Origin: Spongiibacter taiwanensis
Lineage (GTDB): Bacteria; Pseudomonadota; Gammaproteobacteria; Pseudomonadales; Spongiibacteraceae
Assembly (NCBI RefSeq): GCF_023702635.1
Contig: NZ_CP098455.1
Coordinates: 2,294,001-2,358,000, forward strand
Length of the DNA: 64,000 nucleotides
Direction of reading: 5' to 3'
A program made the translations under genes and the position numbers. Under the pieces are notes generated by a model. It was not told the DNA's origin. It saw only the letters and a list, made by a program, of their open reading frames with translations, and ran no database searches. This document shows positions 14,925-34,612 of the stretch, piece by piece (within the stretch, counting starts at the first letter, position 1; the number at the start of each line of letters is the position of its first letter).

Positions 14925-14939
14925 GGTTTTTCCTCCGCC

Positions 14940-16076: not shown

Positions 16077-16172
16077 GTCTTGTCCTCGGCTAGATCGGGT
16101 CTGGGCAGTAAGCGTGGGCCTGTCCGTGTCAGTGGGCAGGCCGCTGATAGCAAAAGACTGCCAAAGCAAAGG

Positions 16173-16218: not shown

Positions 16219-16250
16219 TCTGTGGTTGTGGTTTTAAAGAGGAGAGCGAG

Positions 16251-17207: not shown

Positions 17208-17280
17208 TGAGCCAGACTCACCTTTATGTTTGATTTTTGCCTTTTTGGCGTTGACAGGGTGAGTCTGGCTCAGCTATTGT
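17208..17280 (+). promoter_or_regulatory. promoter with twin TGAG-N5-CTCA operators
   Basis: A 15-bp perfect inverted repeat (17208-17222 and 17258-17272) consists of two copies of the palindrome TGAG-N5-CTCA, with centres 52 bp (about five helical turns) apart. The second copy fills the 18-bp spacer between a consensus -35 (TTGACA, 17251-17256) and a -10-like TATTGT (17275-17280). A protein bound there would block RNA polymerase. Transcription would start near 17287, ahead of the SDR gene. The same design occurs at 34458-34487. Confidence 0.7.
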
Positions 17281-17333
17281 GGCAAAAAATGGCGCCACCG
17301 TCTCGGCTGCCAGTGTGTAGTGAGAAGATTTTT

Positions 17334-18125
17334 ATGACAGGAACGAATGTGACAAAGAGCCTCGATCAGTCCTCTGTGCTGATTGTTGGCGGTACCTCTG
17401 GTGTCGGTTTGGCAACTGCGATGGAGTTTGCCTCCGCCGGCGCAACCAGAATTACCCTGGTGGGTCGCAGTGTGGAGCGCGGCGAAACCGCCCTCGCCGC
17501 GTTGAAGGGGAAATTTAGCGAACTCCATGCAGAGTTTATCTCAGCGGATGCCAATAACCCGGATGAGGCCATGCGCGTGGTGGCCCAATGTCTTGAGATG
17601 CAGGGTGGGCTCGACGTGCTGGTGAATACCACCTCCGCGGCCTATGTGCCCAAGCTGCTGTTCAATATGGACATTAACGATGTTCCCCAGATTCTTAATC
17701 AACAGGCCTTGGCGCCGCTGTTAATGAGCCGTGCGGCGCTGCCCCACATGCGCGAGCAGAAATTCGGCGTCATTATCAACATCGCCTCCGACGCAGCCAA
17801 AGTGCCAACACCGGGAGAAACGGTGTTAGGTGCAGCGATGGCGGCAATTTGTCTGTTCAGTCGGACCTTGGCGATTGAGGGCAAGCGTGACGGCATCCGG
17901 GTCAACGCGGTCACCCCTTCGCTAATTAATGGCACTACGGTTTATGACCGAGTGATGGATGATCCCTTCAGCGCCAAGCTGTTTGCCAACGCAGCCAAAT
18001 TGGCGAGCCTGGGTGTGGCGGAGCCCGAAGATCTTGCCAGCCTGATTGTTTTTCTGGCGAGTCCTGCGGCGCGCCGCATTACCGGGCAGGCGGTGAGTGT
18101 GAATGGTGGAATCTCTGCGGCTTAG
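17334..18125 (+). CDS. SDR-fold protein lacking the catalytic Tyr and Lys
   Basis: 263-aa short-chain dehydrogenase/reductase fold with a recognisable N-terminal dinucleotide site (GGTSGVG, residues 19-25) and the C-terminal block GIRVNAVTPSLINGTT and GQAVSVNGGIS. The active site is abnormal. Ser152 is present, but the position 13 residues later that should be Tyr is Leu165, and the Lys four further on is Met169. The NNAG structural motif is also changed (NTTSA). A classical oxidoreductase mechanism is therefore unlikely; a binding, regulatory or non-redox role is possible. The ATG at 17334 was chosen because it fits SDR length and lies about 47 bases after the predicted transcription start; a longer frame from 17226 would begin upstream of the promoter. 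Confidence 0.8.
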   Translation: MTGTNVTKSLDQSSVLIVGGTSGVGLATAMEFASAGATRITLVGRSVERGETALAALKGKFSELHAEFISADANNPDEAMRVVAQCLEMQGGLDVLVNTTSAAYVPKLLFNMDINDVPQILNQQALAPLLMSRAALPHMREQKFGVIINIASDAAKVPTPGETVLGAAMAAICLFSRTLAIEGKRDGIRVNAVTPSLINGTTVYDRVMDDPFSAKLFANAAKLASLGVAEPEDLASLIVFLASPAARRITGQAVSVNGGISAA

Positions 18126-18181
18126 CCGCAGACAAGAGCAGCGGATGCTGCGAGAGTGGTTTTCTAGAGTTAATAATAACG

Positions 18182-20407
18182 GTGAATAAAATGACGAGAG
18201 ATAAAATGTGCTGGCAGTTGTCGGCGTCTGGAAGATTAGTGCGCAACGGGCTTCTGGGTTCAGCTTCGGCGGCGTTCTGTCTTTTGCCCGCTACCGCCAT
18301 GGCGGCTAAAGGGGCGGCCAGTATTATGATGGAAGAGGTAGTGGTCACTGCTCAAAAGAAAGGAATTGAGTCAGTGCAGGATGTGCCACTGACCATCAAG
18401 GCCTTTGGTGAAGCGCAACTTGAAGCGATGAACTTCAAAAACATTAGCTCCCTTGGGTTTTCTATTCCCAACGTATCCTTGGATACCAATGGCGCGACGG
18501 TCGGATTTCAGAACTTTGCCATTCGTGGTCTGGGGCTCAACAGTGGCAGCCCGTCTATCGACCCTACCGTTGGGGTGTTTGTTGATGGTGTTTACCTGGG
18601 CACCAACGCCGGGGTTCTGCTGGATAACTTTGATCTGGAAGGGGTGGAAGTGCTTCGTGGGCCACAGGGTGTGCTATTTGGGCGCAACGTGACCGGCGGG
18701 GCAGTGTTGGTCAAAACCAAACGACCTTCTGATGAGTTGACCGTTGATGCGAGAGTGGCATTGGAGACGGGGCCGCAAGTAACCTCCGATTTCAGCATTT
18801 CCGGCCCGCTCGGTGATACCGGCCTCAAGGGCAAGCTTGCTGTGTACTACACGGATGATGATGGCTGGCACACCAATGATTTTGACGGTTCCGACTTTGG
18901 TGCCGCTCACCAGACCACCGTTCGTCCAGCGTTACTGTGGGATATCAATGACGACGTAGAGCTGCTCGTCCGCTATGAAAATACCCGGGCGGCCAGTGAC
19001 GGGTCGATCGGACAAAACCGCGCATTGTTTGACCGGGACAGCTTCGACTTTGCCATTAACGAGCCCGGCTTCAGCGAGCTTGAAGTGCAAGGCCTGACCA
19101 CCGAGATGAACTGGAACCTGGGCTTCGGCACGATCACCAACATTGCCGCTTGGCGGCAGGTAGAGAACGATGGGCTGGGCGATATTGACAGTACGCCAAT
19201 GACCTCATTTCACTTCTACCAGATCACCGATCAAGAGCAGTTCAGTAATGAACTGCGTTTCACCGGCACCTTTGGTGATGTGGACGTGACGAGTGGCTTG
19301 TATTACTTCACTCAGTCTCTGCTGTATGTGGAAGAGCGCATCCTGGGTGGCGGCAGCGTTATTCGTGGCGGTGGTGGTAAGGGTGACACTGATGTGATGG
19401 GCATCTTCAACTCACTGGATTGGCGTTTTAGTGACGAGTTGACCCTGAGCGCCGGACTTCGCTACACCACCGAGAAAAAGGACGCGAGCATTGGCAGTAT
19501 TCGCAGCGGCGGTGGCAGCTATGACAGCCGTGGCTTCGTGTCTGATTTTGAAGATGACGAATCCTGGTATGACCTGTCTCCGCGGATTGGTTTTCAGTAC
19601 TATCTGAACGATGATATTAATTTTTACGGCGCCTTTTCACGGGGTTTCCGCAGCGGCGGATACAACTTCCGCTCCACTGTACCCGGTGCGCCTCCCGGTC
19701 CCTTTGATGCGGAAGAGCAGGATTCTTTCGAGCTAGGTTTCAAATCTCAGTTTCTCGATGGCAGAGCTCAGCTCAACGGTGCGATCTTCCACAACACCAT
19801 CAAGGATATTCAGCGGGAAGTCCAAGTGCCGGTCGAGGGCGTAGGGATTGCTCAGTTGATCAAAAATGTTGGCGAGGTCGAAATTCAGGGGATTGAGCTT
19901 GATGGCCAGATATCGGTCACCGACTACATCGTAATTGGCGGCTTCGTCGGCTACCTGGATGACCAGTACAAGTCGCTCAAGTTCGATATCGACGGCGATG
20001 GTGAGATCAATAGCAAAGATAAAGCCTTGCACCTGCCTCGCGCTGCTGAGCTGACCTACGGCGCCCATATTATTGTGGATACGCCGGTGAATGATTGGGG
20101 TATGGTGTCAACGCGTTTGTCGTTCAGTCATCGTGACAAGGCCTACCACCTGGAGAATAACCTGGGCTACTACAACCCCTTGGATATGTTGGATTTGAAC
20201 ATTTCCATCCTGCCCAATGACTCCAACTTCCGCTACGCGATCTTTGCCCGCAACTTGTTGGATGAGGTGAATATCACCAACGACGCGCTGCTGCCAGATA
20301 TTCCCAGTTTTGGTGGCGACGGCCCTGATGGCCCGCGCCCCGTGCCAACCTATAGCTCCTTCAATGAAGGGCGGGTGATCGGTGTGGAAGTACGCTATCA
20401 GTTTTGA
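18182..20407 (+). CDS. TonB-dependent outer-membrane receptor 1
   Basis: 741-aa TonB-dependent receptor. It has a signal peptide (about residues 1-41, ending LPATAMA), a TonB box (EEVVVTAQKK), a plug domain with FAIRGLG and the conserved VEVLRGPQGVLFGRNVTGGAV, then a 22-strand barrel ending in aromatic F (VEVRYQF). It imports a scarce or bulky substrate across the outer membrane using TonB energy. This receptor style is common for non-siderophore substrates in sphingomonads and marine gammaproteobacteria. The start is GTG 18182, with an ATG at 18191 as the alternative. It sits 56 bp after the SDR gene and before the CoA ligase gene, so the substrate is probably the one catabolised by the downstream enzymes. 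Confidence 0.93.
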   Translation: MNKMTRDKMCWQLSASGRLVRNGLLGSASAAFCLLPATAMAAKGAASIMMEEVVVTAQKKGIESVQDVPLTIKAFGEAQLEAMNFKNISSLGFSIPNVSLDTNGATVGFQNFAIRGLGLNSGSPSIDPTVGVFVDGVYLGTNAGVLLDNFDLEGVEVLRGPQGVLFGRNVTGGAVLVKTKRPSDELTVDARVALETGPQVTSDFSISGPLGDTGLKGKLAVYYTDDDGWHTNDFDGSDFGAAHQTTVRPALLWDINDDVELLVRYENTRAASDGSIGQNRALFDRDSFDFAINEPGFSELEVQGLTTEMNWNLGFGTITNIAAWRQVENDGLGDIDSTPMTSFHFYQITDQEQFSNELRFTGTFGDVDVTSGLYYFTQSLLYVEERILGGGSVIRGGGGKGDTDVMGIFNSLDWRFSDELTLSAGLRYTTEKKDASIGSIRSGGGSYDSRGFVSDFEDDESWYDLSPRIGFQYYLNDDINFYGAFSRGFRSGGYNFRSTVPGAPPGPFDAEEQDSFELGFKSQFLDGRAQLNGAIFHNTIKDIQREVQVPVEGVGIAQLIKNVGEVEIQGIELDGQISVTDYIVIGGFVGYLDDQYKSLKFDIDGDGEINSKDKALHLPRAAELTYGAHIIVDTPVNDWGMVSTRLSFSHRDKAYHLENNLGYYNPLDMLDLNISILPNDSNFRYAIFARNLLDEVNITNDALLPDIPSFGGDGPDGPRPVPTYSSFNEGRVIGVEVRYQF

Positions 20408-20474
20408 CAGTGCGCAGCATTAGTTAGCAGTAATTGCAAAATAACCGTAATAAATAGCTTTGACAGGTGAAATC

Positions 20475-22133
20475 GTGACGAATGAAATGCGCCTAACGCA
20501 ATCTTATTGGCCCGCCGATACCTCGGAGCCCTTGTGGCGTAAAACCGCAGGTGATTTGCTGAGGGAGGCGGCGCGAACGTGTCCCGGCCGGGTGGCCCTG
20601 GTGGAAGGCGTTGCCGACATCCATCAACGCCGCCGCTGGACGTATGCGGAATTGTTACAAACTGCCGAGGCGCTTGCCGGAGCGATGCTCTCCGAGTTTG
20701 CGCCGGGTGACCGGGTGGCGATTGTGGCGCCCAACTGCGCCGAGTGGATTCTGTTGCAGCATGGGATGAGTCTGGCGGGGATTGTGCTGGTGTCTATTAA
20801 TCCCGCCTATGGCGAGCAGGAGCTTGACGTCATTCTGAGTCGCTGCGGTGCGAAGGGAGTGTTTTACGCGCCCGAGTATCGCGGCCGAAATCTGCAGGCC
20901 ATCCTTGAAGGACTGGGCAAGCGCCTTGGATTTAGCAGTGCGCCGATTGAGGACCTGGCGGGCTATTGTCAATCTCGTCCCAATCGGGGCGAGCTACCTG
21001 AGGTGGCTCCGGAGGCGACCCTGCAAATTCAGTTTACCTCGGGCACCACCGGCATCCCTAAAGGCGCCTTGCTGCATCACCTGGGGGCGGTGAATACCTC
21101 TAGGTTTGTTGCTGCCCGGGCGGGCTTCCCTGAGGGCGGAGTCTGGGTAAACGCCATGCCGATGTTCCACATTGCTGGCACCGTCGTGACCTCGTTGGGT
21201 ACGCTTACCCGAAAAGGCACCTACGTGATTGTGCCTGGCTTTGAGCCCGAGCTGATTCTGGATTTGTTTGAAACCGAGAAGGGCAACGCGTCTTTGTTGG
21301 TACCCACCATGATACTGGCGATGATGAGTAGTCCTTCATTCGGCAAACGGAATCTGTCATCGGTAACCACCATTCTTACCGGCGCGGCGGATGTACCCAA
21401 AGAACTGGTGTACCGCACCAAAGAGGCCTTTGACTGCAACCTGATTATTCTGTTTGGCCAAACAGAGGTTAACGGTGTGGTCAGTCAAACCCGGATCAGC
21501 GATAGCGCCGAAGACCAAAGCTCCACCTTAGGCAGCCCCTTGCCCCAGGCCGAAGTCTGTATCCGCAATGTCGATACCGGCGAAATTCAGCCCATCGGGG
21601 AGCCTGGCGAGATCTGCGTGCGTGGCTATCAGAATATGCACGGTTATTTTCGCGACGAAGAAGCTACTCGTGAAACCATTACCGAAGAGGGTTGGCTGCG
21701 CACGGGAGATTCAGGTGTGATGGATGAGCGTGGATATATGAAAATTGCTGGCCGTCTAAAAGATATGATTATCCGCGGCGGCATGAATATCTATCCTCGA
21801 GAAATTGAGGAGGTGTTGTTTAATCACCCGGCGGTGGCCCAGGCGAGCGTTATAGGTCTGCCTGACGACTATTGGGGTGAAATTATTGCTGCGGTCATTA
21901 TCCTCGAAGAGGGCTGCCATCGTCCTGATTTCGACGAGCTATTTGCCTATAGCCGTAAGCAATTATCGGCTCATAAATCGCCAATCAAATGGGCCGTAGT
22001 TGAGAGCTTTCCTCTGACCCCCTCCGGCAAGGTGCAGAAGTTTCTGCTGAGGGAATGGGTTAACTCTGGCAAGTTGATGCTGGAAGAAATTGATAAATGT
22101 GCAGCAAAAAATAAAAATGCGGGGCTCTGCTAA
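20475..22133 (+). CDS. AMP-dependent acyl-CoA synthetase / CoA ligase
   Basis: 552-aa ANL-superfamily ligase that activates a carboxylic acid via acyl-adenylate to the CoA thioester. The ATP P-loop FTSGTTGIPKGA lies at about residues 186-197, followed by GQTEVNG (A5-like) and the hinge TGDSGVMDERGYMKIAGRLKDMI. The C-terminal catalytic Lys is in PSGKVQK. Overall it resembles medium/long-chain or cyclohexanecarboxylate-type ligases; the exact substrate cannot be read from sequence. The chosen start is GTG 20475 with AGGTG upstream; a TTG at 20460 is in frame. It links the oxidising enzymes downstream (which would yield an acid) to the acyl-CoA dehydrogenase and HgdB/Bcr-type enzymes. Confidence 0.9.
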   Translation: MTNEMRLTQSYWPADTSEPLWRKTAGDLLREAARTCPGRVALVEGVADIHQRRRWTYAELLQTAEALAGAMLSEFAPGDRVAIVAPNCAEWILLQHGMSLAGIVLVSINPAYGEQELDVILSRCGAKGVFYAPEYRGRNLQAILEGLGKRLGFSSAPIEDLAGYCQSRPNRGELPEVAPEATLQIQFTSGTTGIPKGALLHHLGAVNTSRFVAARAGFPEGGVWVNAMPMFHIAGTVVTSLGTLTRKGTYVIVPGFEPELILDLFETEKGNASLLVPTMILAMMSSPSFGKRNLSSVTTILTGAADVPKELVYRTKEAFDCNLIILFGQTEVNGVVSQTRISDSAEDQSSTLGSPLPQAEVCIRNVDTGEIQPIGEPGEICVRGYQNMHGYFRDEEATRETITEEGWLRTGDSGVMDERGYMKIAGRLKDMIIRGGMNIYPREIEEVLFNHPAVAQASVIGLPDDYWGEIIAAVIILEEGCHRPDFDELFAYSRKQLSAHKSPIKWAVVESFPLTPSGKVQKFLLREWVNSGKLMLEEIDKCAAKNKNAGLC

Positions 22134-22300
22134 GGGCCATCGCGGCATGAATTTTTACAAGGCTTGCTAGACCGGGATATCGACAACTTGAGGAGAGATT
22201 GAGTTGAATTCGCTCTAATAAGCCGACTCTTATCTCCTCTGCGTAGTTTGTCAGTGCAGGTAATAAGTAGTTAGCAGGGCGCAAATACTGTGGAGAGAAA

Positions 22301-23803
22301 ATGAATAACAAGTGGCAAAATCTTATTGCAGGAGAGTGGCGTGAGCCACTCAGTGCTTCATACATGAGTGTGATCAGTCCGGTAAATGGTCAGGTAGTCA
22401 CGGAAATACCTAAATCGGATGAGGGCGACGTAAACGATGCTGTCGCTGCAGCGCGGGCGGCCTTTGAAAGTGCCGCGTGGCGGGAAATCACAATTGAAGA
22501 TCGATCAAACATTCTTACCGCAATAGCGCATGCCATCGGCGCCAATGCCGTCGAACTTGCTAAATTGGATGTGGATTGCTGTGGGGGAACTATCACTCGA
22601 TTGAGCTCCTTTGATGTGCCCGCGGCTATCGACATCTTTATGTTTTATGCCAATGCTGTAATGAGCTACCCCTTTGTTCAGCACGGTGCAGGCAGGCCGT
22701 TGCCAGAGCTTTGGCACGCTGAAATTTTCAAAGAGCCGGTCGGTGTCTGCGGTCTGATCACGGCCTGGAATGCGCCTCTGTTGTTGTTGGCGATGAAGCT
22801 TGCGCCAGCCCTGGCCGCGGGGTGTACGGTGGTGGTGAAGCCCTCCGAGCTAACGCCGACTTCTGCTCTGCGTTTGGCAGAAATTGTGGCTGACATTCTT
22901 CCCCCTGGGGTTGTCAATGTGGTCACCGGGGAGGGCTCTGTGGTGGGCGAGGCAATGTCCCTCCACCCCGGAATCGATAAGATTTCGTTTACGGGCTCCA
23001 CTCGAATTGGTGAGCGTATCCAACGGAATGGTTCCACCACAACAAAACGTGTAGCACTTGAGTTGGGCGGTAAAGGCGCGGGCATTGTTATGCCGGATGC
23101 CGATCTGGATCTTACGATTCAGGGGGCGGCTTTTGGTGTGTTGCTAAATACCGGGCAGGCTTGCGAGTCGGGCACCCGTTTGTTGGTACACAAGGATATG
23201 TATCAATCATTTACGGCGCGCTTGGCTGAATTTATGTCGGGCTTCAAAAGTGGTAATCCCTACAATCCGGACACGGGCATTGGAGCTGTGTCATCCAAAG
23301 CGCATCTGGACAAAATTCTGGCGTATGTGGCGTCTGCCCGCGATGAGGGTGCCTCAATCCTGTGTGGTGGGCATGCGGAGGTTGTTGAAGGCTGTGAATC
23401 TGGCTTTTATATGCAGCCCACGGTGATAGCCAACGCAAGTAATGACATGACTGTTGCGAAAGAAGAAATTTTTGGCCCGGTCATCACCGTTATTCCCTAT
23501 TCAACTATCGATGAGGCAGTGAATATTGCCAATGATACTTGCTATGGACTGTCAGCAGGTATTTGGACTGGCGATATTGCCGGCGCGCAATCGTTGGCGC
23601 GCCGCCTTGATGCTGGATCGGTGTGGATAAATGATTGGCACATGATTCGATCCGATCTTCCTTTTGGCGGTTATAAGCGCAGTGGTATTGGTAGGGAAAT
23701 GGGCTTTAGTGGATTAGAGGCTTACCTTGAAACCAAAGTGGTAACGACCTCATTTGAACGTGACCCTCGGAAAAAGGCCCTGCATTCGGTCGTGCTGAAA
23801 TAG
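22301..23803 (+). CDS. NAD(P)-dependent aldehyde dehydrogenase
   Basis: 500-aa aldehyde dehydrogenase superfamily enzyme oxidising an aldehyde to the acid. The catalytic Cys288 lies in NTGQACESGTR and the general base Glu254 in ALELGGKG. The cofactor region ITAWNAPLLL and the FTGSTRIG motif are present. The start is ATG 22301 after GGAGAGAAA. It is 10 bases ahead of the iron alcohol dehydrogenase gene. The pair would take a primary alcohol to an acid that the upstream ligase could activate. Confidence 0.93.
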   Translation: MNNKWQNLIAGEWREPLSASYMSVISPVNGQVVTEIPKSDEGDVNDAVAAARAAFESAAWREITIEDRSNILTAIAHAIGANAVELAKLDVDCCGGTITRLSSFDVPAAIDIFMFYANAVMSYPFVQHGAGRPLPELWHAEIFKEPVGVCGLITAWNAPLLLLAMKLAPALAAGCTVVVKPSELTPTSALRLAEIVADILPPGVVNVVTGEGSVVGEAMSLHPGIDKISFTGSTRIGERIQRNGSTTTKRVALELGGKGAGIVMPDADLDLTIQGAAFGVLLNTGQACESGTRLLVHKDMYQSFTARLAEFMSGFKSGNPYNPDTGIGAVSSKAHLDKILAYVASARDEGASILCGGHAEVVEGCESGFYMQPTVIANASNDMTVAKEEIFGPVITVIPYSTIDEAVNIANDTCYGLSAGIWTGDIAGAQSLARRLDAGSVWINDWHMIRSDLPFGGYKRSGIGREMGFSGLEAYLETKVVTTSFERDPRKKALHSVVLK

Positions 23804-23813
23804 GAGAATCGCA

Positions 23814-25013: not shown

Positions 25014-25094
25014 TAATGGCTTTGCCGTTGCCCCTGAGCTGTTCCGTCAGCACCGCAAGGCAATTACTCGCATCGCGCATTCGAGGAGAGAGCA

Positions 25095-26252: not shown

Positions 26253-26286
26253 ATTTTAAAAAATTAATGAGGTGGAGATCGCGAAA

Positions 26287-28497
26287 ATGAAAAATTATAA
26301 ATTTTACTTTATTTTGTTTGCTGGCGCCATTTCGGCGTTTTCTAATGCTGCTGTAATAGAGGAGGTTATAGTAACTGCTCAGAAGCGTGATCAGAACGCT
26401 CAAGATGTTCCTATCGCTGTGACTGCTATCAAAGGTGAAAGCCTAGAGAGGTTAGGGTTGTCAAATGGCAGTGAGATAGCAAGTCAAATTCCAAATGTAC
26501 AAGTACAAAAGCCATATGGTGATGCGCAACCAATTTTTGCAATCCGTGGGATTGTAAATTCGGATTATAAGGCGACTACGGCTTCTCCGGTTGGTGTTTA
26601 TGTGGATGAAGTGTATTTGGGGGTGCCGACTACGCATGGTTTACAATTATTTGACGTTGATCGCATTGAGATATTAAGAGGGCCTCAAGGCACATTGTTT
26701 GGAAAAAATACTACTGGTGGGGCTGTGAGCGTCTCTACCGCGCTCCCTTCAGGAGAGCGGGGGGGGTACGTCGGTGTTGGAGTCGGCAACTTTAATAGAA
26801 TTGATTTAAAAGGTGCGTACGAGACGGCTCTCATTCCTGATATTCTGGATGTTCGTGGCGCAATAAATTCCAGCAAAGCAGACGGCCACTTTGAAAACAA
26901 GGAGCCAGGGAAAGACGATTTAGATTCCGTTGATTATTTATCGGCAAGAGGTGTTGCTTATTATCGGCCAACATCTGGATTAGATGTAATTTTTCGTTAC
27001 ACGATAGCTGATCAAGACTCAAATGCTCCCACAATTACCCCAGGGGGAACAAATATTGGTGGGTATAAACACGAAGGTAGTGCGTTTGATGTGCGGTCTG
27101 ACTATGTTGAGGCGCAAACTAACAAATTTGATCTCGCCTCGCTAAGTGTTAGCTACTCTTGGGATGAGTATTTCCTCACATCAATTACCGGTTTGGGTGA
27201 TGGTGATTATTTGAATAAGACAGATACAGATGGCTCTCCTTTAGATATTATTACCGTAGACTGGGGGACTAGCTTTGAACAAATTTCTGAAGATCTTAGG
27301 TTTGGCGGTGGTTTCGATTGGTATAATTTTATTTTTGGTTTATATCTCTCAAGGGAATCGGTTGAGGCAGATAATTTCTACCAATTTGGACGGGATAGGC
27401 CGGACGCATTTAATGGTACTCAGATAAATCAAAATTTAGAGCTTCGGCGGGATAGTTTGGCCACTTATGGGCAGGCCTCGTTTGATATTACATCCGAACT
27501 CGCCTTCACCGTGGGTCTTCGATATAGCGTCGACACCAACATGCTAAGAGATTTTGAGGTAGATTGGATAGATGGTCGTACTGGATTGCCCTCGCCAGTT
27601 GCACTGGCTGCATTTGGTTCGACGAGAACCGTTGATATTGAAGAGAGGGAGTTTGAGAACAAGGAGCTATCGGGGAAGCTTGGTTTTGATTATAAGGTCG
27701 ACGAAGCGAGCTTATTATATTTTTCGTACAGTCGAGGATATCGCAGTGGCGCATTTAATACCGGCGCGCTGTTCGAAAGCGAAACAGAAGAAGTGCTTGA
27801 GCCGGAAATTGTTGATGCGTATGAGATTGGGTTTAAGGCTCAGCTGTGGGGGCGGCAAGCTCAATTGAACAGTGCAATTTTCTATTACGATTATCAAGAT
27901 CAGCAGTTTGTTAACGTAGTTGGCATTAGCCAGCTGCTAGCAAGCGCAGATAAATCTTCTGTTATTGGTGTGGAATCGGAGCTTTTGTTAAAGCCTACGG
28001 ATCGAATAACCATTAATACCGGGTTAGGAATTTTGGAGACAGAATATAAAAAATTGGAGCTTGATGTGGCGCTGGATGCTTTAGGTTCTACCTCGCGATC
28101 AGAGGACCTTTCTGGAAATAAGCTGTTGGCAGCACCGGAAGTGAATTTTAATTTCTCTATTGATTATGTGGTTCCATTTGAAAGCAGTGATTTAATATTT
28201 CATTTAGATACGATGTACGCTAGTGAGCAGTTCTTTACGGCGTTTAATGATTACTACGATGAGGATACAGTTGGCGCAGATTTTAGGGGCATAAAGCAGG
28301 AAAGTTATTGGATGTCGAATGCTCGTATTACATATGAAATTCCTGATAAAGGGATTTCCTTTGCGGCATGGTGTAAAAATTTAGAAAATAAAGAAATCAT
28401 CGCGTACTCCATCAATGCTCAAGCGTACGGAGGATTTGATTTTAATCAGTATTTGAAACCTAGAACGTTTGGTGTAGAGGTTAAGTATATTTTTTAA
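26287..28497 (+). CDS. TonB-dependent outer-membrane receptor 2
   Basis: 736-aa TonB-dependent receptor: a short signal peptide (about 1-22, AGAISAFSNA), a TonB box EEVIVTAQKR, plug landmarks FAIRGIV and IEILRGPQGTLFGKNTTGG, and a barrel ending VEVKYIF. ATG 26287 is chosen (GGTGGAG upstream). The codon use is clearly AT-richer than receptor 1 and the genes before it, a sign of separate acquisition. It probably serves a related substrate or intermediate. Its stop is 29 bases before the next start, so it forms a unit with the small exported protein. Confidence 0.92.
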   Translation: MKNYKFYFILFAGAISAFSNAAVIEEVIVTAQKRDQNAQDVPIAVTAIKGESLERLGLSNGSEIASQIPNVQVQKPYGDAQPIFAIRGIVNSDYKATTASPVGVYVDEVYLGVPTTHGLQLFDVDRIEILRGPQGTLFGKNTTGGAVSVSTALPSGERGGYVGVGVGNFNRIDLKGAYETALIPDILDVRGAINSSKADGHFENKEPGKDDLDSVDYLSARGVAYYRPTSGLDVIFRYTIADQDSNAPTITPGGTNIGGYKHEGSAFDVRSDYVEAQTNKFDLASLSVSYSWDEYFLTSITGLGDGDYLNKTDTDGSPLDIITVDWGTSFEQISEDLRFGGGFDWYNFIFGLYLSRESVEADNFYQFGRDRPDAFNGTQINQNLELRRDSLATYGQASFDITSELAFTVGLRYSVDTNMLRDFEVDWIDGRTGLPSPVALAAFGSTRTVDIEEREFENKELSGKLGFDYKVDEASLLYFSYSRGYRSGAFNTGALFESETEEVLEPEIVDAYEIGFKAQLWGRQAQLNSAIFYYDYQDQQFVNVVGISQLLASADKSSVIGVESELLLKPTDRITINTGLGILETEYKKLELDVALDALGSTSRSEDLSGNKLLAAPEVNFNFSIDYVVPFESSDLIFHLDTMYASEQFFTAFNDYYDEDTVGADFRGIKQESYWMSNARITYEIPDKGISFAAWCKNLENKEIIAYSINAQAYGGFDFNQYLKPRTFGVEVKYIF

Positions 28498-28526
28498 ATA
28501 AATTTATGGTTTATGAGGGATTTTGT

Positions 28527-28877
28527 ATGCGTTATATAAACGTACGGTTAGTTTTTCTTTCTTGCGTAATGAGTGCCTTTTCAGGCGGGGAGGTGATGGC
28601 GCAGGCATTGCCAGGGCTGGGAGATATTTTGAATATTGACATCGCCAATGAAGTGGCTGGCAAGTTGGCAATGCCGTCTCCCTCGGCAGGGGATAAAATT
28701 CTCGAGTTGAGCGAGGTCTTGGCGCCTTTGGAAAGCCTTGAATTGATTTCTGAAATCACTGGTTCTGGTATTCCCTTTCATCCAGGTATTGGGGCAATCC
28801 CGCTCGCGCCTGATTTAATCGGGATTCCGCCGATGCTGCCGGTAAATCCTTTGTTGATAATGACCTTAATTCCATAG
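28527..28877 (+). CDS. small exported protein of unknown function, 116 aa
   Basis: Has a clear signal peptide (residues 1-27, hydrophobic core RLVFLSCVMSAF, cleavage after MAQA). The mature part is about 89 residues, poor in charged residues and rich in Pro, Ile, Leu and Gly, with an acidic amphipathic middle (ILELSEVLAPLESLELISEI) and a hydrophobic Pro-rich end (PPMLPVNPLLIMTLIP). I do not recognise a family. The ATG at 28527 has GAGGGA upstream. Directly downstream of TonB receptor 2 and ended by a terminator, it may be an accessory periplasmic or outer-membrane partner of that receptor. Confidence 0.6.
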   Translation: MRYINVRLVFLSCVMSAFSGGEVMAQALPGLGDILNIDIANEVAGKLAMPSPSAGDKILELSEVLAPLESLELISEITGSGIPFHPGIGAIPLAPDLIGIPPMLPVNPLLIMTLIP

Positions 28878-28916
28878 AGCGTTAATTCCACTGTTGTTCC
28901 GCAGTGTTGTAATCAT

Positions 28917-28947
28917 AAAGCGGATCTCGTTTGAGGTTCGCTTTTTT
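28917..28947 (+). terminator. intrinsic terminator after the small exported protein gene
   Basis: Imperfect stem AAAGCG...CTC / GAG...CGCTTT around a GTTT loop, followed by six T residues. It ends the transcription unit that includes TonB receptor 2 and the small exported protein. Confidence 0.75.
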
Positions 28948-29030
28948 CCCTATCGGCCTGCTTTGTTGTGATCAATTGCTAATTTTTTTAAGTTGAGAAG
29001 GTGCGGGATATAATTTAGGCTGAAATTTTT

Positions 29031-29819
29031 ATGAATAAATCCGATTTTATGCCCACGAGTATCGCATGTGATGATAATCTTTTCGGTAATGATGCGGTCA
29101 TTTTTGTTCATGGTTGGTCATGTAATAGGAGTTCATTTTTTAGCCAATATGCCTTTTTTTCTAAAGGCCATCGAGTAATAGCGTTGGATTTGCCTGGGCA
29201 TGGCGAAAGCCCTGCATGTTCAGGTCTCGATGATTTAATGTCGTATTCAGAAATAATTTATGAATTTCTTGCGGCCAAAGGGCTTCATAAGGCTAGATTG
29301 GTTGGCCATAGTATGGGAGGGGCTATTGTATTAACTTTAGCCTCTATGTTTCCTGGTTTGGTGGAGGCGGTTGTGGTGTTGGACCCGGTGCCAATGGTGA
29401 TGACGCCGGAGTTTTACGCGGCGTTGGAAGGCCTTGCCATTTCCCTAGAGAAAGGCGAGGTTGAAATGCGATCCGCCTTTGTTGCACAAGCGTTGTTTCG
29501 AGAGGATGCGGACCCACAGCTGCGCAACGAGGTTGTGGCAATGATGTCGACTACGCCTGCAGCCATAGCAGCGGCGGCAATGCGGGCAATATTGCAGTAT
29601 GACGGTTTGGCTACAGCGAAATCCTGTCGTGCGCCTATCCTGCATATCGCGGCCGATCCGCCGACAAACCCAATACATCAAATGGAAGCGCTGCTGCCGG
29701 CAGTGATTAATCGGCAAATACTTTGTGCCGGGCATTTTAACCATCATGAGCAGCCGAAGTTGGTGAATCAATTTATTTCTGCGTTCTTCGAAAAAGTCAG
29801 TCGAGAGAGCAGGGCGTAA
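29031..29819 (+). CDS. alpha/beta-fold hydrolase
   Basis: 262-aa alpha/beta hydrolase. The oxyanion region is FVHGWS (residues 25-30), the nucleophile elbow GHSMGG has Ser94, and the catalytic His235 is in CAGHFNHHE; the acid is probably the Asp in HIAADPPTN. There is no signal peptide, so it is cytoplasmic. It may cleave an ester, a lactone, a CoA thioester or a ring-cleavage product. Moderately AT-rich like the two genes before it. It follows a terminator and so needs its own promoter in 28950-29030. A Shine-Dalgarno is weak. Confidence 0.85.
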   Translation: MNKSDFMPTSIACDDNLFGNDAVIFVHGWSCNRSSFFSQYAFFSKGHRVIALDLPGHGESPACSGLDDLMSYSEIIYEFLAAKGLHKARLVGHSMGGAIVLTLASMFPGLVEAVVVLDPVPMVMTPEFYAALEGLAISLEKGEVEMRSAFVAQALFREDADPQLRNEVVAMMSTTPAAIAAAAMRAILQYDGLATAKSCRAPILHIAADPPTNPIHQMEALLPAVINRQILCAGHFNHHEQPKLVNQFISAFFEKVSRESRA

Positions 29820-29916
29820 GCTGCTGTATACTCCGTAATTAGTCTATTGTATTTCAGATTGCTATTTAATTGGCAGTGTAAAGCAGAGAACAAGCACATT
29901 CACCGGTCACAGTAAG

Positions 29917-30051
29917 AAGCCGACGGTTCACCCGCTTTGATATCCGGCCGGCGATACGGTGGTGATTGTGGCCAAGGTCCAGACTGATTCCATGAGTATT
30001 CTGTCGACCTTGTCCGAGGAAAATATGCTGGCGATAGTTGGTCAGCCGTAA
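29917..30051 (+). pseudogene. decayed 3' fragment of an iron-containing alcohol dehydrogenase gene
   Basis: Translating the frame that ends at TAA 30049-30051 gives a segment that aligns without gaps to the C-terminus of the intact Fe-ADH encoded at 23814-25013. VIVAKVQTDSMSILSTLSE matches IVVAVQQDPMGGMAMLPED, and both then run into LAIVG. The start of the fragment (PTVHPL) aligns with PTFTRH and is broken by an in-frame TGA at 29938-29940. Only about 45 codons remain and no start is present. This accounts for part of the 365-bp gap between the hydrolase and TetR genes. I see nothing else there besides upstream sequence of the TetR gene. Confidence 0.7.
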
Positions 30052-30184
30052 GGCTGGAAATAAGGTCGTAGCGCCCTGTCTTGCTTGCGGTTGAGTCTGC
30101 TTTCTTGTGCAGGACAAGATGCTAACACAGCGGTCGGCAAGGTCATGGGGTCTGGCATTGGATTGATGGAGTAATAAAGACGGA

Positions 30185-30895
30185 ATGAAGGCAGAAAAAG
30201 GCAAAGTGGGCGCGACACCGCGCATGTCCAAGGATCAGCGCGTAGCCAATATCCTGACGGTGGCCAAGCGCCACTTTGGCAAGGTGGGTTATGAGAATTT
30301 TTCGCCGGTTGAGGTGGCGCAGGAGTGTGGGGTGTCTGAAGCTACGATTTACCGCTACTTTGCTAGCAAGCAGGATCTTCTTGAGCGGGTTGCCGAATTT
30401 TGGGTGGAAGAGTTGCTGCTTGGTGCACCCAATTTCAAGAAGCATGACAATATTTATGATCGCCTTAGAGAGGTCATCTGGTACAGCCTGTGGGTGGTTC
30501 ATTCGGAACCCGAACTGTCCAAGTACATTTGGATGGCAATCCGCAGCCAGCCCGATTTTAGAAGCTCTCGTATCTACTCGCTGAACCGTCGTTTTACCGC
30601 CTACACCACCAATGTGATTGCCGATGCCATGGCGCAAGGGGTATTTCGCGCCGATATTTCGGCCCGGACAGTGCGTAATATTATCTTTGGCACCATCGAG
30701 CACGAAGTGTGGTCCTTCGTACAGGGGGACGGGGATTTCTCGCTGGAGGCCTCGGTCGAGACAATTACGGGTTTTGTCTTTCGCGGCCTAGCAGTAGAAG
30801 CGCCGGTTAATGTTGAGACTTTTCACAGGGCGTTGGCCCGTATCCAGAGTGGTTTGCAGAAGATTGATGGAGCAGTAAAACAGTTGACGGATTAA
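30185..30895 (+). CDS. TetR-family transcriptional regulator
   Basis: 236-aa TetR regulator: the N-terminal HTH is at about residues 20-65 (ILTVAKRHFGKVGYENFSPVEVAQECGVSEATIYRYFASKQ), followed by an all-helical ligand-binding domain. It lies between the two transcription units that share the TGAG-N5-CTCA operator and converges on the HgdB/Bcr-type operon (8-base gap to the activase stop). That makes it the best candidate for the shared repressor. A partial operator-like TGAGTCTG occurs upstream at about 30092-30099. The ligand would be expected to be a pathway CoA ester, as for many TetR regulators of acyl-CoA catabolism; this is inference. Confidence 0.9.
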   Translation: MKAEKGKVGATPRMSKDQRVANILTVAKRHFGKVGYENFSPVEVAQECGVSEATIYRYFASKQDLLERVAEFWVEELLLGAPNFKKHDNIYDRLREVIWYSLWVVHSEPELSKYIWMAIRSQPDFRSSRIYSLNRRFTAYTTNVIADAMAQGVFRADISARTVRNIIFGTIEHEVWSFVQGDGDFSLEASVETITGFVFRGLAVEAPVNVETFHRALARIQSGLQKIDGAVKQLTD

Positions 30896-30903
30896 ATATC
30901 GTG

Positions 30904-31803
30904 TTAACTATAGCACTTCATGCAGTTGGGAAGGGGGCGGTTATTCGGTTGCATCGCTGCTTCGACTTCCAGCTCAAGTTGAGTCAATCTTTCGGTATTT
31001 AATTGCATGAGGGTGCGGCCAGTGCTTAGTTCCATGGCCAGCAGCGCTGCGCCAAAGGCACCCATAATCTGTGGGTCTTCCGGAATTTGCAGGGTCTGGT
31101 GTAATTCCTGCTCGAGAAAATGCACGGCCGCCGAGTTTTTTGCCACCCCGCCAGTCATAACGATAGGGCTGCGCTTGCCGACCTGGGCCACCAGGCCCAG
31201 CGCGCGATGGGCAATGGCGCGGTGAACCGAGGCGGCCACATCGGCAGGCTCGGCACCTCCGGCCAGCAAAGAAATAATCTCAGTTTCGGCAAAGGTGGCG
31301 CACATGGTGCTCACGTCGAGGTCCTTTGTGCCTTGCATGGCCAGTGGCCCCACCTCGCCGATTTCACACTCCAGTGCCCGGGCCAGCACCTCGTAGAAGC
31401 GCCCGGTGCCACTGGCACAGCGATCATTCAGGGCAAAGCGATCGACCAGGCCTTGATCGTCGAGGGCGATGACCTTGCTGTCCTGGCCGCCGACATCGAT
31501 CACCAAGCGGGCTTCTGGGAAGAGCGCGGCGACGCCCCGGGCGTGACAGGTAATTTCGGTAAAGGTGCGGCCGACCCCCGGCACCAGGCGCCGACCGTAG
31601 CCGGTGCCAATGGTGTAGCTAAGGTCCTGCTCAGTGAGTCCGGCCATCGTCAGGGCCCCCTGGATGGCTTTCTCTACCCCTTTGCGACTGACAGCCCCCA
31701 TCTGGACAATCTGCCCACCCGTAACCACGCCGTCACTGGTGATGACCACGGCTTTGGCAGTAGTGGAACCCAAATCGACGCCCATAAAATTTGAGGTGGC
31801 CAT
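30904..31803 (-). CDS. [4Fe-4S] activase ATPase of the HgdC/BcrA-BcrD/BadF family
   Basis: 299-aa ASKHA-fold ATPase that drives low-potential electron transfer into its partner dehydratase or reductase. The N-terminal phosphate loop GVDLGSTTAKAV is at residues 8-19 and the second nucleotide motif DVGGQDSK at 103-110. The two cysteines that bridge a [4Fe-4S] cluster between dimer halves are Cys129 (DRCASGTGRF) and Cys168 (STMCATFAE), at almost the same positions as in HgdC. ATG 31803 gives the family-length start; a TTG at 31827 is in frame. It is the last gene of the operon with the two HGD-D-type subunits. Only one ATPase gene is present, as in HgdC systems, whereas classical benzoyl-CoA reductases have two different ones. 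Confidence 0.92.
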   Translation of the reverse strand: MATSNFMGVDLGSTTAKAVVITSDGVVTGGQIVQMGAVSRKGVEKAIQGALTMAGLTEQDLSYTIGTGYGRRLVPGVGRTFTEITCHARGVAALFPEARLVIDVGGQDSKVIALDDQGLVDRFALNDRCASGTGRFYEVLARALECEIGEVGPLAMQGTKDLDVSTMCATFAETEIISLLAGGAEPADVAASVHRAIAHRALGLVAQVGKRSPIVMTGGVAKNSAAVHFLEQELHQTLQIPEDPQIMGAFGAALLAMELSTGRTLMQLNTERLTQLELEVEAAMQPNNRPLPNCMKCYS

Positions 31804-31827
31804 AGGCTTATTTCCCGTCATTGCCAA

Positions 31828-33177
31828 TTAGGCGGAGGCGATCAGGTCTCTGGAGCGGCGCACATCGATGGTTTCCAGCATCGCCTCCAGGCGGCTCTCC
31901 AGCAGTTCTCCCTTGTAGAAGGATTCGTCGGCAACATCGCCCTCAAAAAAGATAGACGGTAATCCGTGGTCCTTTTGCATCGCTCTGGCCAGCATCTGTT
32001 GGGGGCCGGTGAAGGCGCGGCAGGTGCGGGTGGAATGAAATACGATGCCATCCAAACCATAGTAGTCACAGTCGTGCTCGGTAAAGTGCTTGATGGTTTT
32101 GAAACCGTGATTGGTCGGGCACAGCAGATAGTGTTGTGCCATGCCGCGGATGGGGTCGTCGGTGTCGATCAGATGGGGTTCCTGCCAAAAAGCGTTGTGG
32201 GTGTAGCGGCCCGCGACGATGGCGACCTTGTGTTCCGCAAAGACCCGGGCGAGGGTGCCCAGTTTGTTCCAGTTCATGATGCCGTCGAAATACAACCGAT
32301 ATTTCTCATCCTTGATCGCGGTTTCGCCCCGGGCAAGTCGGCCGACGATTTCCTCGCGGATATTGCTGAAGTAGGTAACCAGCTCGGGGCCGGCAGGCAG
32401 GAAATTGATATGGGCAACGCTGGCGATCCAGTCCCAAAAGGTCGCCGGGGTAGGCTTGCTGCGGCACATGGCCATCGCATCCCGGCGGATTTCAGCGGCC
32501 TGCTTGATATAGTGCATCCCCTCCCGCAGGGCTTCCCAGTCGAAGGGGCGCTTGGTGTGAAACTCGATGAACTCAATCAATTTGTGCAGCTGGTCGGCGA
32601 CGTAATCGGAAGCCTCCTCCCATTCCTGTCCCTGCAGGTAGCCAGCGTCGGCCCGGTTGCTCCACAGGAAGGGCAGTGACACATTGAAGATAGGAACTTC
32701 CTTGCCGAGCACGCGCATGGTCAGTTCGTCCCACTGCTGGCCGGTGCTGCAGCCGGCGTAACTGTTGACGATGAAATTGGGCATGGGCAGGCGGCTGGCC
32801 AGCTCATCGCGGTCGGCCTCGTCGACGATGCCGTTTTCGAATTTTTCCCGGGCCTGTTTGGCGAGTAATGCGGTGCCAAGGTGGGTGCGGGCATAGGAGC
32901 AGAGCTCGCCGACGTAGCCGTATTCCTGTGCTGCCAGTTGGGCGGATTTTTCCAGTTTTTGCGCCGAGAGTCGCGCGGCGAAGGCCTCGCCGTGGGCCCA
33001 TTCAAGGCCAGCGGCCTGGAAGATGGGGTTCAGGGCAGCGCCGTTGTACCAGACCACGCTGGCATTGCGCTCGTTGGCGGTGAAAATTCTCTCCCAATAA
33101 TCGGAGATCATGTGTCGCCCTGCATCATTGCTTTTCAGGCGGTTAACGCTGCTGGGTTTGGTCGCGGCCGATGTCAT
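31828..33177 (-). CDS. 2-hydroxyacyl-CoA dehydratase / benzoyl-CoA reductase family subunit (BcrB/HgdA-like)
   Basis: 449-aa HGD-D family subunit. Candidate Fe-S ligands are Cys93 (ELCSYARTHLG), Cys143 (AGCSTGQQWDE) and Cys386 (HSTRTCRAFTG), followed by the family mark FFEGDVADESFY, in the order expected for BcrB/FldB-type proteins. With its partner it would form a heterodimer carrying [4Fe-4S] clusters. That heterodimer either removes water from a 2-hydroxyacyl-CoA through a ketyl radical or reduces an aromatic/unsaturated acyl-CoA. It overlaps the upstream subunit gene by 4 bases. The sequence does not decide between the two reaction types. Confidence 0.88.
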   Translation of the reverse strand: MTSAATKPSSVNRLKSNDAGRHMISDYWERIFTANERNASVVWYNGAALNPIFQAAGLEWAHGEAFAARLSAQKLEKSAQLAAQEYGYVGELCSYARTHLGTALLAKQAREKFENGIVDEADRDELASRLPMPNFIVNSYAGCSTGQQWDELTMRVLGKEVPIFNVSLPFLWSNRADAGYLQGQEWEEASDYVADQLHKLIEFIEFHTKRPFDWEALREGMHYIKQAAEIRRDAMAMCRSKPTPATFWDWIASVAHINFLPAGPELVTYFSNIREEIVGRLARGETAIKDEKYRLYFDGIMNWNKLGTLARVFAEHKVAIVAGRYTHNAFWQEPHLIDTDDPIRGMAQHYLLCPTNHGFKTIKHFTEHDCDYYGLDGIVFHSTRTCRAFTGPQQMLARAMQKDHGLPSIFFEGDVADESFYKGELLESRLEAMLETIDVRRSRDLIASA

Positions 33178-34355
33178 GGGGTGTGCTCCTGCAGAGATTG
33201 CTGGGGTTGTTTGCGCCGAATTCGCTCAATCATTGCCTCGACGCGGGTGCGTACAGATTCCACCGGCAGCCCTTCGTGCTCGGTTTCGATCAGCAAGTGG
33301 GGGATGCCCTTTGCGTTAAGTGCCTTGCGCAGCTCGGGGTAGTGGAACATATGGGCTTCGCAGAATTTGGCCATTAAGACGATGACACCCTCGGCGTCGC
33401 TCTCTTCCAGTGAGTGCAACAGATACTCTGACCAGCTGACTGACTTTTGTACCCGTGTTGGGCAGGGGGCATTGGCATTGCGGGCAAAGTACCAGTTCGC
33501 CAGTGCGTCCCGGGGGGAGATGTCCTGGGCAACGTCGGTGGAAACGTAGCGGGCGCCAGTGTAGAGGTCATCGTCTACGATAACGGCGCCGCAGTCTGCT
33601 AGCACGTCGAACAGTTCGGGGCGCGGTGCGTGGCAGAAGTGCCCTGATAGATGCAGGCGGATACCCGAGGTCCGGGGGCGGGGGGCGGACGTTGCGAGGA
33701 GTTGCTCGAGTAGCGTGGAATGTTCCTCTTTGTCCATGATCATGCTGGATTTGATCAGCACTTGCAGTTCTTCAGCGGAGAAACGGTCGTCACCCTGCTG
33801 CCGCGCCTGAAAAATTTTGCGCAGCAATTGGCGGTTGCGGTTATTGGCGGCAATGCACTCACGCAGTTTGTCATCGCTGATGGGCTGGCCGGTTACCCGT
33901 TCCGCTTCGGCAATAAACGCATCGATTTTTTCCCGCACCTGATCGTGGGTCCAGCTATCGTCCATTGCGGCAATCAGGTGCTCGAAAAAGAAAGGCTTGT
34001 CGGAAAGCATTTCTCTAACGACATCGGTGGCTCCCAGCAATTGGATGCAGTGGTCGGCATTCATGAATGCATCGTACTTTTCGAAGCGCCCTGTGGCGAC
34101 CTGATCAGCGATGCTGCGGGTATAGCCGCAGTAAAATTCGGCGAGCAGGTTGTTGCCCGCGGTAATGGGGGTGGGGTCATCCTGAATAATGACCGGCAGT
34201 GCGCCGGTCGCGGCAATAATTTCAACGGGAAAGTTCATCGGAAAGATGCCGATAACGGCGGTCTTTTTTCGGGATTTCCAGTCGTCGATATAGTGGGCGG
34301 GGTTGTTGGCGATTTCCCGCAACCTGTCCAGGGTACTGCTGTCGCTGTCATTCAT
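33174..34355 (-). CDS. 2-hydroxyacyl-CoA dehydratase / benzoyl-CoA reductase family subunit (BcrC/HgdB-like)
   Basis: 393-aa HGD-D family subunit, the smaller partner. The N-terminal FPMNFPVEIIAATGALPV is the family's CoA-site signature. Probable cluster ligands are Cys76 (FYCGYTRS), Cys103 (ADHCIQLLGA) and Cys332 (KFCEAHMFHYP), and the family's C-terminal GIPHLLIETEHEG is present. First gene of the three-gene operon; ATG 34355 is about 100 bp after the operator-filled promoter at 34458-34487. Such enzymes are extremely oxygen-sensitive in known systems, which is unexpected beside a gene set that looks aerobic. Confidence 0.88.
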   Translation of the reverse strand: MNDSDSSTLDRLREIANNPAHYIDDWKSRKKTAVIGIFPMNFPVEIIAATGALPVIIQDDPTPITAGNNLLAEFYCGYTRSIADQVATGRFEKYDAFMNADHCIQLLGATDVVREMLSDKPFFFEHLIAAMDDSWTHDQVREKIDAFIAEAERVTGQPISDDKLRECIAANNRNRQLLRKIFQARQQGDDRFSAEELQVLIKSSMIMDKEEHSTLLEQLLATSAPRPRTSGIRLHLSGHFCHAPRPELFDVLADCGAVIVDDDLYTGARYVSTDVAQDISPRDALANWYFARNANAPCPTRVQKSVSWSEYLLHSLEESDAEGVIVLMAKFCEAHMFHYPELRKALNAKGIPHLLIETEHEGLPVESVRTRVEAMIERIRRKQPQQSLQEHTP

Positions 34356-34457
34356 CGGTCTTGCTCAACATCATGGTCTGGCGCGCTTGGCGGGCTGACC
34401 GTTTGTTTGGAGGAAAAAGTGGTTTGGCAGTCGTGCTGCTTTTCCTTTTGTTGGGTC

Positions 34458-34487
34458 AGATTAGGTGAGTTATGCTCAGCATGTCAA
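34458..34487 (-). promoter_or_regulatory. promoter with TGAG-N5-CTCA operator in the spacer (HgdB/Bcr-type operon)
   Basis: On the minus strand a consensus -35 TTGACA (34487-34482) is followed by an 18-bp spacer (34481-34464) and TAATCT (34463-34458). The spacer consists of the palindrome TGAG-TTATG-CTCA (34466-34478 on plus). In plus orientation GGTGAGTTATGCTCAGC differs from the 17258-17274 copy (GGTGAGTCTGGCTCAGC) at only three central bases. Both promoters have the same 18-bp spacing. Confidence 0.7.
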
Positions 34488-34597
34488 GAATGGTGTGTTA
34501 TTTTTGGTGTGCTATATGACCGGGTGGCTAGGTTTTGATCTTTGAGATTAAGACAAAATCCATATAAAACAGCAAGTTGCTATTTTTATTTATTTTG

Positions 34598-34612
34598 TGA
34601 GTATTGCTCACC
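34598..34612. promoter_or_regulatory. third-locus copy of the TGAG-N5-CTCA operator
   Basis: TGAG-TATTG-CTCA followed by CC, a match to the operators at 17208-17272 and 34466-34478, with its centre 132 bp upstream of the promoter-embedded copy. It may be an auxiliary site for cooperative or looped repression, as the twin sites at 17.2 kb suggest. It lies in the 394-bp gap between the FadL-like gene and the HgdB/Bcr-type operon; no gene is seen there. Confidence 0.55.

Follow-up and report, generated by a model that had tools for sequence, protein, structure and literature searches.

Four palindromes at two facing promoters as candidate operators of a local TetR-family regulator in a CoA-ligase/HgdB-HgdC gene cluster of Spongiibacter taiwanensis

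FadR of Sulfolobus acidocaldarius is a TetR-family repressor that acts locally: its genome has just four binding sites for it, in one 30-kb acyl-CoA-metabolism cluster, and fatty acyl-CoA releases it from DNA (PMC6449355). BkaR of mycobacteria, a TetR that regulates its own gene, has a pair of palindromes in a single intergenic region, and another motif is found at acyl-CoA genes close by (PMC3920632). A related arrangement is described here for a 64,000-nt stretch of the Spongiibacter taiwanensis genome (contig NZ_CP098455.1, positions 2,294,001 to 2,358,000; hereafter the window, to which all window coordinates refer). Four copies of the palindrome TGAG-N5-CTCA accompany two promoters, P1 ahead of a short-chain dehydrogenase/reductase (SDR) gene and P2 ahead of hgdB, at the two ends of a gene cluster that also encodes a TonB-dependent receptor, an acyl-CoA ligase, a TetR-family regulator, HgdC, and an acyl-CoA dehydratase activase (Table 1). 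With a probability of roughly 0.85 for the mechanism as a whole, the four palindromes are judged to be operators of one local repressor, this TetR. The regulatory circuit is of a familiar type, and the finding is real and far above chance.

Palindromes at two facing promoters

An initial annotation of the window had listed TGAG-N5-CTCA at 17208, 17260, 34466, and 34598, had placed the copies at 17260 and 34466 in the 18-bp spacers of TTGACA promoters facing opposite ways, and had given three central differences between their 17-base cores and distances of 52 and 132 bp to the outer copies. All of this was borne out by the sequence; P1 is on the plus strand and P2 on the minus strand. Within the P1 pair, the 13-mer at 17208 is the reverse complement of that at 17260. 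The site at 17260 falls inside the longest-start extension of the downstream gene and 5' of the homologous or annotated start, and the site at 34466 lies under an open reading frame (ORF) antisense to the hgdB start. A fifth exact copy in the window (23344) is located within an aldehyde dehydrogenase ORF and was not counted as an operator. The gene of a FadL/TodX-type outer-membrane protein (34750-36126) points toward the hgdB promoter region.

In the window, five copies of TGAG-N5-CTCA were observed versus 0.71 expected, and none of 100 shuffles reached five; for the two upstream stretches (553 bp together, equal base frequencies), 0.008 exact sites are expected. The genome (3,714,182 bp, single contig) was scanned for exact matches, sites with mismatches not being sought. 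The bare 13-mer was found at 23 places versus 24 for the reversed control, which is no enrichment; 13-mer frequency was therefore dropped as an argument, and weight was given to position, conservation, and co-occurrence alone. The 19 places that are not operators are all under ORFs, 14 (that at 23344 among them) within ORFs of 400 aa or longer and five in ORFs of 117-181 aa; a Pfam domain was present in two of these five and in none of the other three, which may thus be non-coding. The refuting condition named in the initial annotation, frequent palindromes at unrelated loci, was checked for exact matches: these 19 places are no more numerous than chance predicts, and most are in coding sequence. 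An ORF with a predicted phage-integrase domain contains three exact 13-mers in 0.72 kb (approximately 1775.7-1776.4 kb, locus L013), which were taken as chance. Elsewhere (L045:1530), one 13-mer is surrounded by the long palindrome TGATTATTTGAGTGCCACTCAAATAATCA, which may be a terminator or some other element.

The stricter pattern GGTGAGTNNNGCTCA was found at four places genome-wide, three of them at this locus, and at none for the reversed control. A wider regulon of exact sites was rejected, since the sole other place lies within a 146-aa ORF that has no Pfam domain. When a matrix was trained on 12 sites from three relatives only (genomes G012, G015, and G017, introduced below), the window sites ranked first to fourth with scores of 28.3, 23.0, 21.4, and 18.4, the next score being 10.8; the top score across 60 Markov windows of Zhongshania composition was 17.4.

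Distribution of the palindromes and of the TetR gene

Relatives of HgdB (E<=1e-60) were found in four of 145 related genomes, namely that of the window, G012, G015, and G017, and relatives of the TetR (E<=1e-30) were found in the identical four, all of one genus (Zhongshania, 18 genomes searched). The paired palindrome (gap 25-50) occurs in exactly these four of the 18 genomes and in 5 of the 127 genomes outside the genus. At the four outside loci that were checked, the pair lies in ORFs of at least 150 aa in three cases and not in one (L082), the fifth genome (G117) being left out. The pair at the SDR promoter is 51 bp apart in all three relatives versus 52 bp here, and the spacing of the hgdB pair varies (Table 1). 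In all eight promoters of the four genomes the inner palindrome begins 3 bp past the -35 hexamer, which is TTGACA in seven and TTGATA in one. Alignment of the upstream regions gave 43 invariant columns of 164 (SDR) and 54 of 403 (hgdB); both arms of the inner site are among them, as is the -35 box in full or for the most part, and the bases of the N5 core vary. The outer hgdB sites align only pairwise because their distance varies. The proposal of the initial annotation that one repressor controls both units gains support from this identical four-site layout in three further genomes.

In the relatives, the genes for the SDR, TonB receptor, CoA ligase, and TetR share a strand and run toward those for HgdB, HgdC, and activase, which are on the opposite strand, with approximately 9.3 kb (G012), 9.6 kb (G017), or 11 kb (G015) between the inner sites. 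The 17-kb promoter distance emphasized at first thus holds for the window, where it results from six extra genes at 22.3-29.8 kb, and not for the compact unit of the relatives. A second, diverged cluster is present in G012 (L036:18038 to L041:613; TetR 43%, HgdB 42%, and HgdC 52% identity) and has an exact palindrome 5' of its activase gene.

The palindromes might be products of chance or structures acting at the RNA level, and the chance frequency of the bare 13-mer genome-wide would agree with the former. This is a negligible alternative, which sequence evidence, within its reach, already refutes: the arms are kept and the core is free in four genomes, the position relative to the -35 box is constant in the genus, and the sites recur in other phyla. 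Promoter position also bears on the sign of regulation. A TetR that reads the sites and activates, or acts both ways, would suit the outer sites, which are located 5' of the promoters, and would have a parallel in Mycobacterium FasR, which is described as an activator and matches the window TetR weakly in NCBIfam (33 bits); it is very unlikely given that the inner site is between -35 and -10 in all eight Zhongshania promoters, a position typical of repression.

Repression by the local TetR was also weighed against a LysR-type protein (16251-17174) encoded directly 5' of the SDR gene, which could itself read the palindromes. Its gene adjoins P1 and has a counterpart (74% identity) beside the G012 cluster. 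Around the G015 and G017 clusters, both of which keep all four sites, no LysR match (E<=1e-15) was found in the stretches searched, and the LysR gene overlaps the start of an opposite acyl-CoA dehydrogenase ORF (14940-16511), presumably a more usual LysR target. LysR was accordingly rejected as the regulator and is regarded as highly improbable. The overlapping LysR and acyl-CoA dehydrogenase genes stand head to head and are followed by a nitronate-monooxygenase-like gene (block 13959-17174); the block adjoins the cluster in G012 as well.

Outside the genus, genome contigs were scanned with a profile of the HgdC alignment, which yielded 24 loci: 2 Zhongshania, 20 Actinomycetota, 1 Rhodobacteraceae plasmid, and 1 Novosphingobium. 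HgdC identity is 57-67% at the 22 non-Zhongshania loci, of which 20 encode an SDR with at least 50% identity; a CoA ligase with 47-53% identity is encoded at 19 (only in part at L060). Relatives of the TetR (E<=1e-30) were detected in 5 of the 22 genomes. Exact non-coding palindromes are found at L060, L066, and L067 (5' of hgdB) and at L068 (5' of a CoA-ligase gene), and L069 has palindromes with one mismatch, one of them 167 bp ahead of hgdB; these are precisely the five loci with a TetR. Exact copies in the HgdC ORF of L051 (10243), in the CoA-ligase ORF of L067 (17700), and in a 288-aa ORF (L041:1051) were not counted as operators. Five of these contig stretches (L053, L060, L062, L065, and L069) are shorter and cut by contig ends, so that parts of the cluster may be missing.

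Six plasmid records carry TetR or HgdC relatives, and five were taken, one of two Sphingopyxis records being left out. They were picked by these relatives and scanned for sites only afterwards; the QY30 plasmid was not blind, one of its sites being known from L068. On Azoarcus pAZKH, two sites lie 5' of hgdB. Sphingopyxis macrogoltabida has one site 5' of the SDR-HgdB-HgdC genes and one 5' of tetR, and QY30 has one 5' of a CoA-ligase gene, one with no gene assigned (L079:14859), and a weaker one 95 bp 5' of an hgdB. For R. ruber no site was found, nor any TetR among the plasmid matches (only plasmid records were searched). The Sulfitobacter plasmid stretch, which carries AtuA-like and biotin-carboxylase genes, has a palindrome (L081:2488) 5' of a second TetR gene that is not the one nearest to the window TetR; related TetRs perhaps share a wider operator family. 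More than one HgdB/HgdC copy is present per plasmid or locus in QY30 (L079) and Citricoccus (L051).

Taken together, seven clusters outside the genus are accompanied by a TetR relative on the genome or plasmid that holds them, and each of the seven has a site close to one of its genes (six exact, L069 with one mismatch), and none of the 18 clusters with no detected TetR relative has one outside coding sequence. For exact sites (6/7 versus 0/18) Fisher's test gives p = 4e-5. In this count L068 and L079 are one plasmid and were entered once, as L079; L081, which has no HgdC match in its stretch, was left out (7/8 and p = 1.2e-5 if included); and L061 and L063 look like near-duplicates with identical upstream sequence (p = 5e-5 with one removed). 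Clusters were scored as TetR-less when no match reached E 1e-30, with 130 of 161-229 candidates scored in four genomes. The sites L066:8731 and L078:9925 were counted; they are inside the longest-start extension of the downstream gene and 5' of the homologous or annotated start. The best matrix score per locus was 13.9-26.2 with a TetR and at most 8.4 without. By eye, the site is between TTG and TA..GT hexamers in two Pseudonocardia and in Actinomycetospora. A TetR search of 369 genomes at class level (E 1e-40) returned the window's own TetR only, and a search of 297 genomes of the Pseudonocardia family gave, among the matches listed and with at most nine candidates scored, two matches that were both already known. 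Switch and cassette were found together in Gamma-, Alpha-, and Betaproteobacteria and in Actinomycetota.

A regulator encoded elsewhere might control both promoters and share its targets with the cluster by chance. Binding by the local TetR is itself deduced rather than observed, and a loose first look gave 21 TetR candidates in the window's own genome. Only the local TetR among these 21 passed E 1e-30, the sites track it in the genus (4/18) and in other groups, and among exact matches in the genome no other site was recognized that clearly occupies a promoter position; an unlinked regulator is thus improbable. The candidate named in the initial annotation, the TetR at 30185-30895, is supported by its co-occurrence with the sites in 4 of 18 congeneric genomes and by the association in other groups, and is very probably the regulator of both promoters.

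Several observations weigh against this interpretation. The -10 box of P2 (TAATCT) is poor, agreeing with TATAAT at only 3 of 6 positions, and a promoter scanner listed no promoter in the P2 stretch. The bare 13-mer is not enriched genome-wide. Distances to the outer hgdB site vary (131, 132, 166, and 178 bp), which lends no support there to simple helical phasing or looping, and a fixed-phase DNA loop was rejected for this promoter. A 365-bp gap separates tetR from the preceding gene, and tetR may therefore have its own promoter. L069 lacks an exact site, and the scores of L066 (13.9) and L078 (14.4) are below the random-window maximum of 17.4 (60 windows), so that position counts more than score for these two. 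Finally, the loci are phylogenetically related, and the p-values overstate their independence.

Gene content and the HgdB/HgdC/activase enzyme

The coordinates of the cluster are given in Table 1.

Table 1. Genes, promoters, and predicted operators of the cluster in the window
Feature	Position	Strand	Basis or comparison
Outer operator (predicted), SDR promoter	17208-17220		TGAGCCAGACTCA; counterpart 51 bp from inner site in G012, G015, G017
Promoter P1	17251-17280	+	TTGACA 17251-17256, 18 bp, TATTGT 17275-17280; 10/12 matches
Inner operator (predicted), SDR promoter spacer	17260-17272		TGAGTCTGGCTCA; arms and register conserved across the four genomes
SDR oxidoreductase, first gene of forward unit	17334-18125	+	Pfam; 70-73% identity in three relatives
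TonB-dependent receptor, core gene	18182-20407	+	Pfam; 80-81% in three relatives
Acyl-CoA ligase (AMP-binding), core gene	20460-22133	+	Pfam; 73-78% in three relatives from residue 12
Six extra genes: aldehyde dehydrogenase, Fe-type alcohol dehydrogenase (Fe-ADH), acyl-CoA dehydrogenase, second TonB receptor, 123-aa protein, alpha/beta hydrolase	22301-29819	+	
TetR-family regulator, proposed repressor of both promoters	30185-30895	+	TetR_N and TetR_C_4 above Pfam cut-offs; 64-67% in three relatives
Acyl-CoA dehydratase activase (BadF/BadG/BcrA/BcrD-type ATPase)	30904-31827	-	PF01869; TIGR00241 above cut-off
HgdC, HGD-D subunit, HadB-like	31828-33177	-	PF06050; Cys 93, 143, 386 aligned to cysteines of 3o3m_A
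HgdB, HGD-D subunit, HadC/BzdN-like	33174-34355	-	PF06050; Cys 76, 103, 332 aligned to cysteines of BzdN (8s02_B)
Promoter P2	34458-34487	-	TTGACA 34487-34482, 18 bp, TAATCT 34463-34458
Inner operator (predicted), HgdB promoter spacer	34466-34478		TGAGTTATGCTCA
Outer operator (predicted), HgdB promoter	34598-34610		TGAGTATTGCTCA; counterparts 131, 178, 166 bp from inner site in G012, G015, G017

The SDR start was picked from homologues, the longer ORF beginning at 17226, and the true start of the CoA ligase may be downstream of the listed TTG. No counterpart of the six extra genes was found inside the clusters of the three relatives, the rest of those genomes not being searched for them; in the window they would belong to the unit only given transcriptional read-through. 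The best NCBIfam match of the extra acyl-CoA dehydrogenase is cyclohexanecarboxyl-CoA dehydrogenase (458 bits, below the cut-off of 575), and it has relatives at 42-47% identity in some HgdB/HgdC loci elsewhere (L049, L055, and L067).

The TetR_N domain of the regulator is N-terminal (PF00440, 53.6 bits, cut-off 24), and its C-terminal domain scores above the cut-offs of both TetR_C_4 (37.7 bits, cut-off 21) and TetR_C_24 (34.4 bits, cut-off 26.4). Residues 45-59 read A..CGVSEAT[IV]YRYF in seven of nine aligned sequences, that of the window included. Its profile recovered 330 proteins at E<=1e-40 among 7997 scored candidates, and one of its solved relatives, which are only distantly similar, is 3whb, a regulator of fatty acid metabolism. 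The best NCBIfam match is NF053878 (Bacillus FadR), at 73 bits against a cut-off of 200, so the protein is not a member of that family. An acyl-CoA is a likely guess for the inducer, by analogy, because the TetR_C_4-type domain binds acyl-CoA in FadR and because the gene clusters with that of a CoA ligase.

The dehydratase gene set is present, with PF06050 in both HGD-D subunits and a single activase gene. Three cysteines each in HgdB and HgdC match, by alignment only, cysteines of 3o3m_A and 8s02_B that are presumably [4Fe-4S] cluster ligands. The HadB and HadC equivalog scores (117.6 and 143.9 bits) are below the cut-offs of 750 and 700, and no HGD-D equivalog cut-off, including those of Bcr and Bzd, was reached by HgdB or HgdC. 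Class I benzoyl-CoA reductases combine a pair of HGD-D subunits with two distinct ATPase subunits. A benzoyl-CoA reductase (Bcr/Bzd) was rejected because only one ATPase gene is present and the Bcr and Bzd cut-offs were not reached; with one activase gene, the arrangement is closer to that of a 2-hydroxyacyl-CoA dehydratase, whose reaction is a candidate here. An alicyclic-ring pathway, which the best match of the extra acyl-CoA dehydrogenase would suggest, was dropped as a firm claim, the SDR being far from BadH (112 bits, cut-off 431), and was kept as speculation; the crotonase near the R. ruber cluster, which scores as MenB rather than BadI, speaks against it too.

The hosts of HgdB/HgdC clusters are mostly regarded as aerobes, and some, such as Azoarcus, can respire nitrate. 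A dehydratase/reductase-type enzyme in bacteria regarded as aerobic is the less ordinary part of the finding; in the open-licence PMC literature, no paper on an HGD-D enzyme of this type in aerobes was found among the matches listed.

Proposed circuit and described systems

In the proposed circuit, which is read from sequence, a TetR dimer on the inner site would sit between -35 and -10 and block RNA polymerase at both promoters, the two repressed promoters facing each other across the convergent gene cluster, and a second dimer on the outer site would strengthen repression. The substrate would enter through the TonB receptor and be activated by the CoA ligase, after which a pathway acyl-CoA would bind the C-terminal domain of the TetR and cause it to leave the DNA. 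Uptake, activation, the SDR, and the activase-dependent HgdB/HgdC enzyme would thereby be induced jointly. The sites, their promoter placement, their conservation, and their co-occurrence with the TetR are observations; from these we infer binding by the TetR, repression as the sign, the acyl-CoA ligand, and the role of the outer sites.

The pair of operator and TetR provides a sequence marker that singles out, across two phyla or more, one variant of a still uncharacterised pathway whose dehydratase/reductase type is normally associated with anaerobes. If the inducer is a pathway acyl-CoA, release of the TetR by acids would reveal the substrate, and the workings of such an enzyme in air would become testable. 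Tentatively, and at somewhat less than even odds, the TetR, its TGAGY-NNN-RCTCA operator, and the SDR/CoA-ligase/HgdB-HgdC-activase genes may constitute an autonomous catabolic cassette that takes its switch along when it passes between phyla and that runs an ATP-driven radical dehydration or reduction, possibly of an alicyclic acid, in bacteria regarded as aerobes, an enzymology normally known from anaerobes.

FadR of Bacillus, also called YsiA, resembles the window TetR in that NF053878 is the latter's best NCBIfam match and TetR_C_4 is the YsiA-like C-terminal region in Pfam. The operator of Bacillus FadR is a TGAATGA-type palindrome. The enzyme resembles 2-hydroxyisocaproyl-CoA dehydratase HadBC, whose activator is HadI, in having two HGD-D subunits, one activase gene, and cysteines aligned with those of solved relatives; it differs from HadBC in subunit scores far under the equivalog cut-offs and in hosts taken to be mostly aerobes. 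In the accessible part of PMC6637906, no motif was found.

Sulfolobus FadR is archaeal, has a 16-bp motif, and controls lipases and beta-oxidation genes (PMC6449355), and BkaR has a 16-bp core with a different half-site, GTTA(N)T(N4)A(N)TAAC (PMC3920632). The window shares with the first a local TetR and a handful of sites at an acyl-CoA gene cluster, and with the second a local TetR, paired palindromes, and acyl-CoA genes nearby. By analogy, the circuit proposed here would work like those of Sulfolobus FadR and BkaR.

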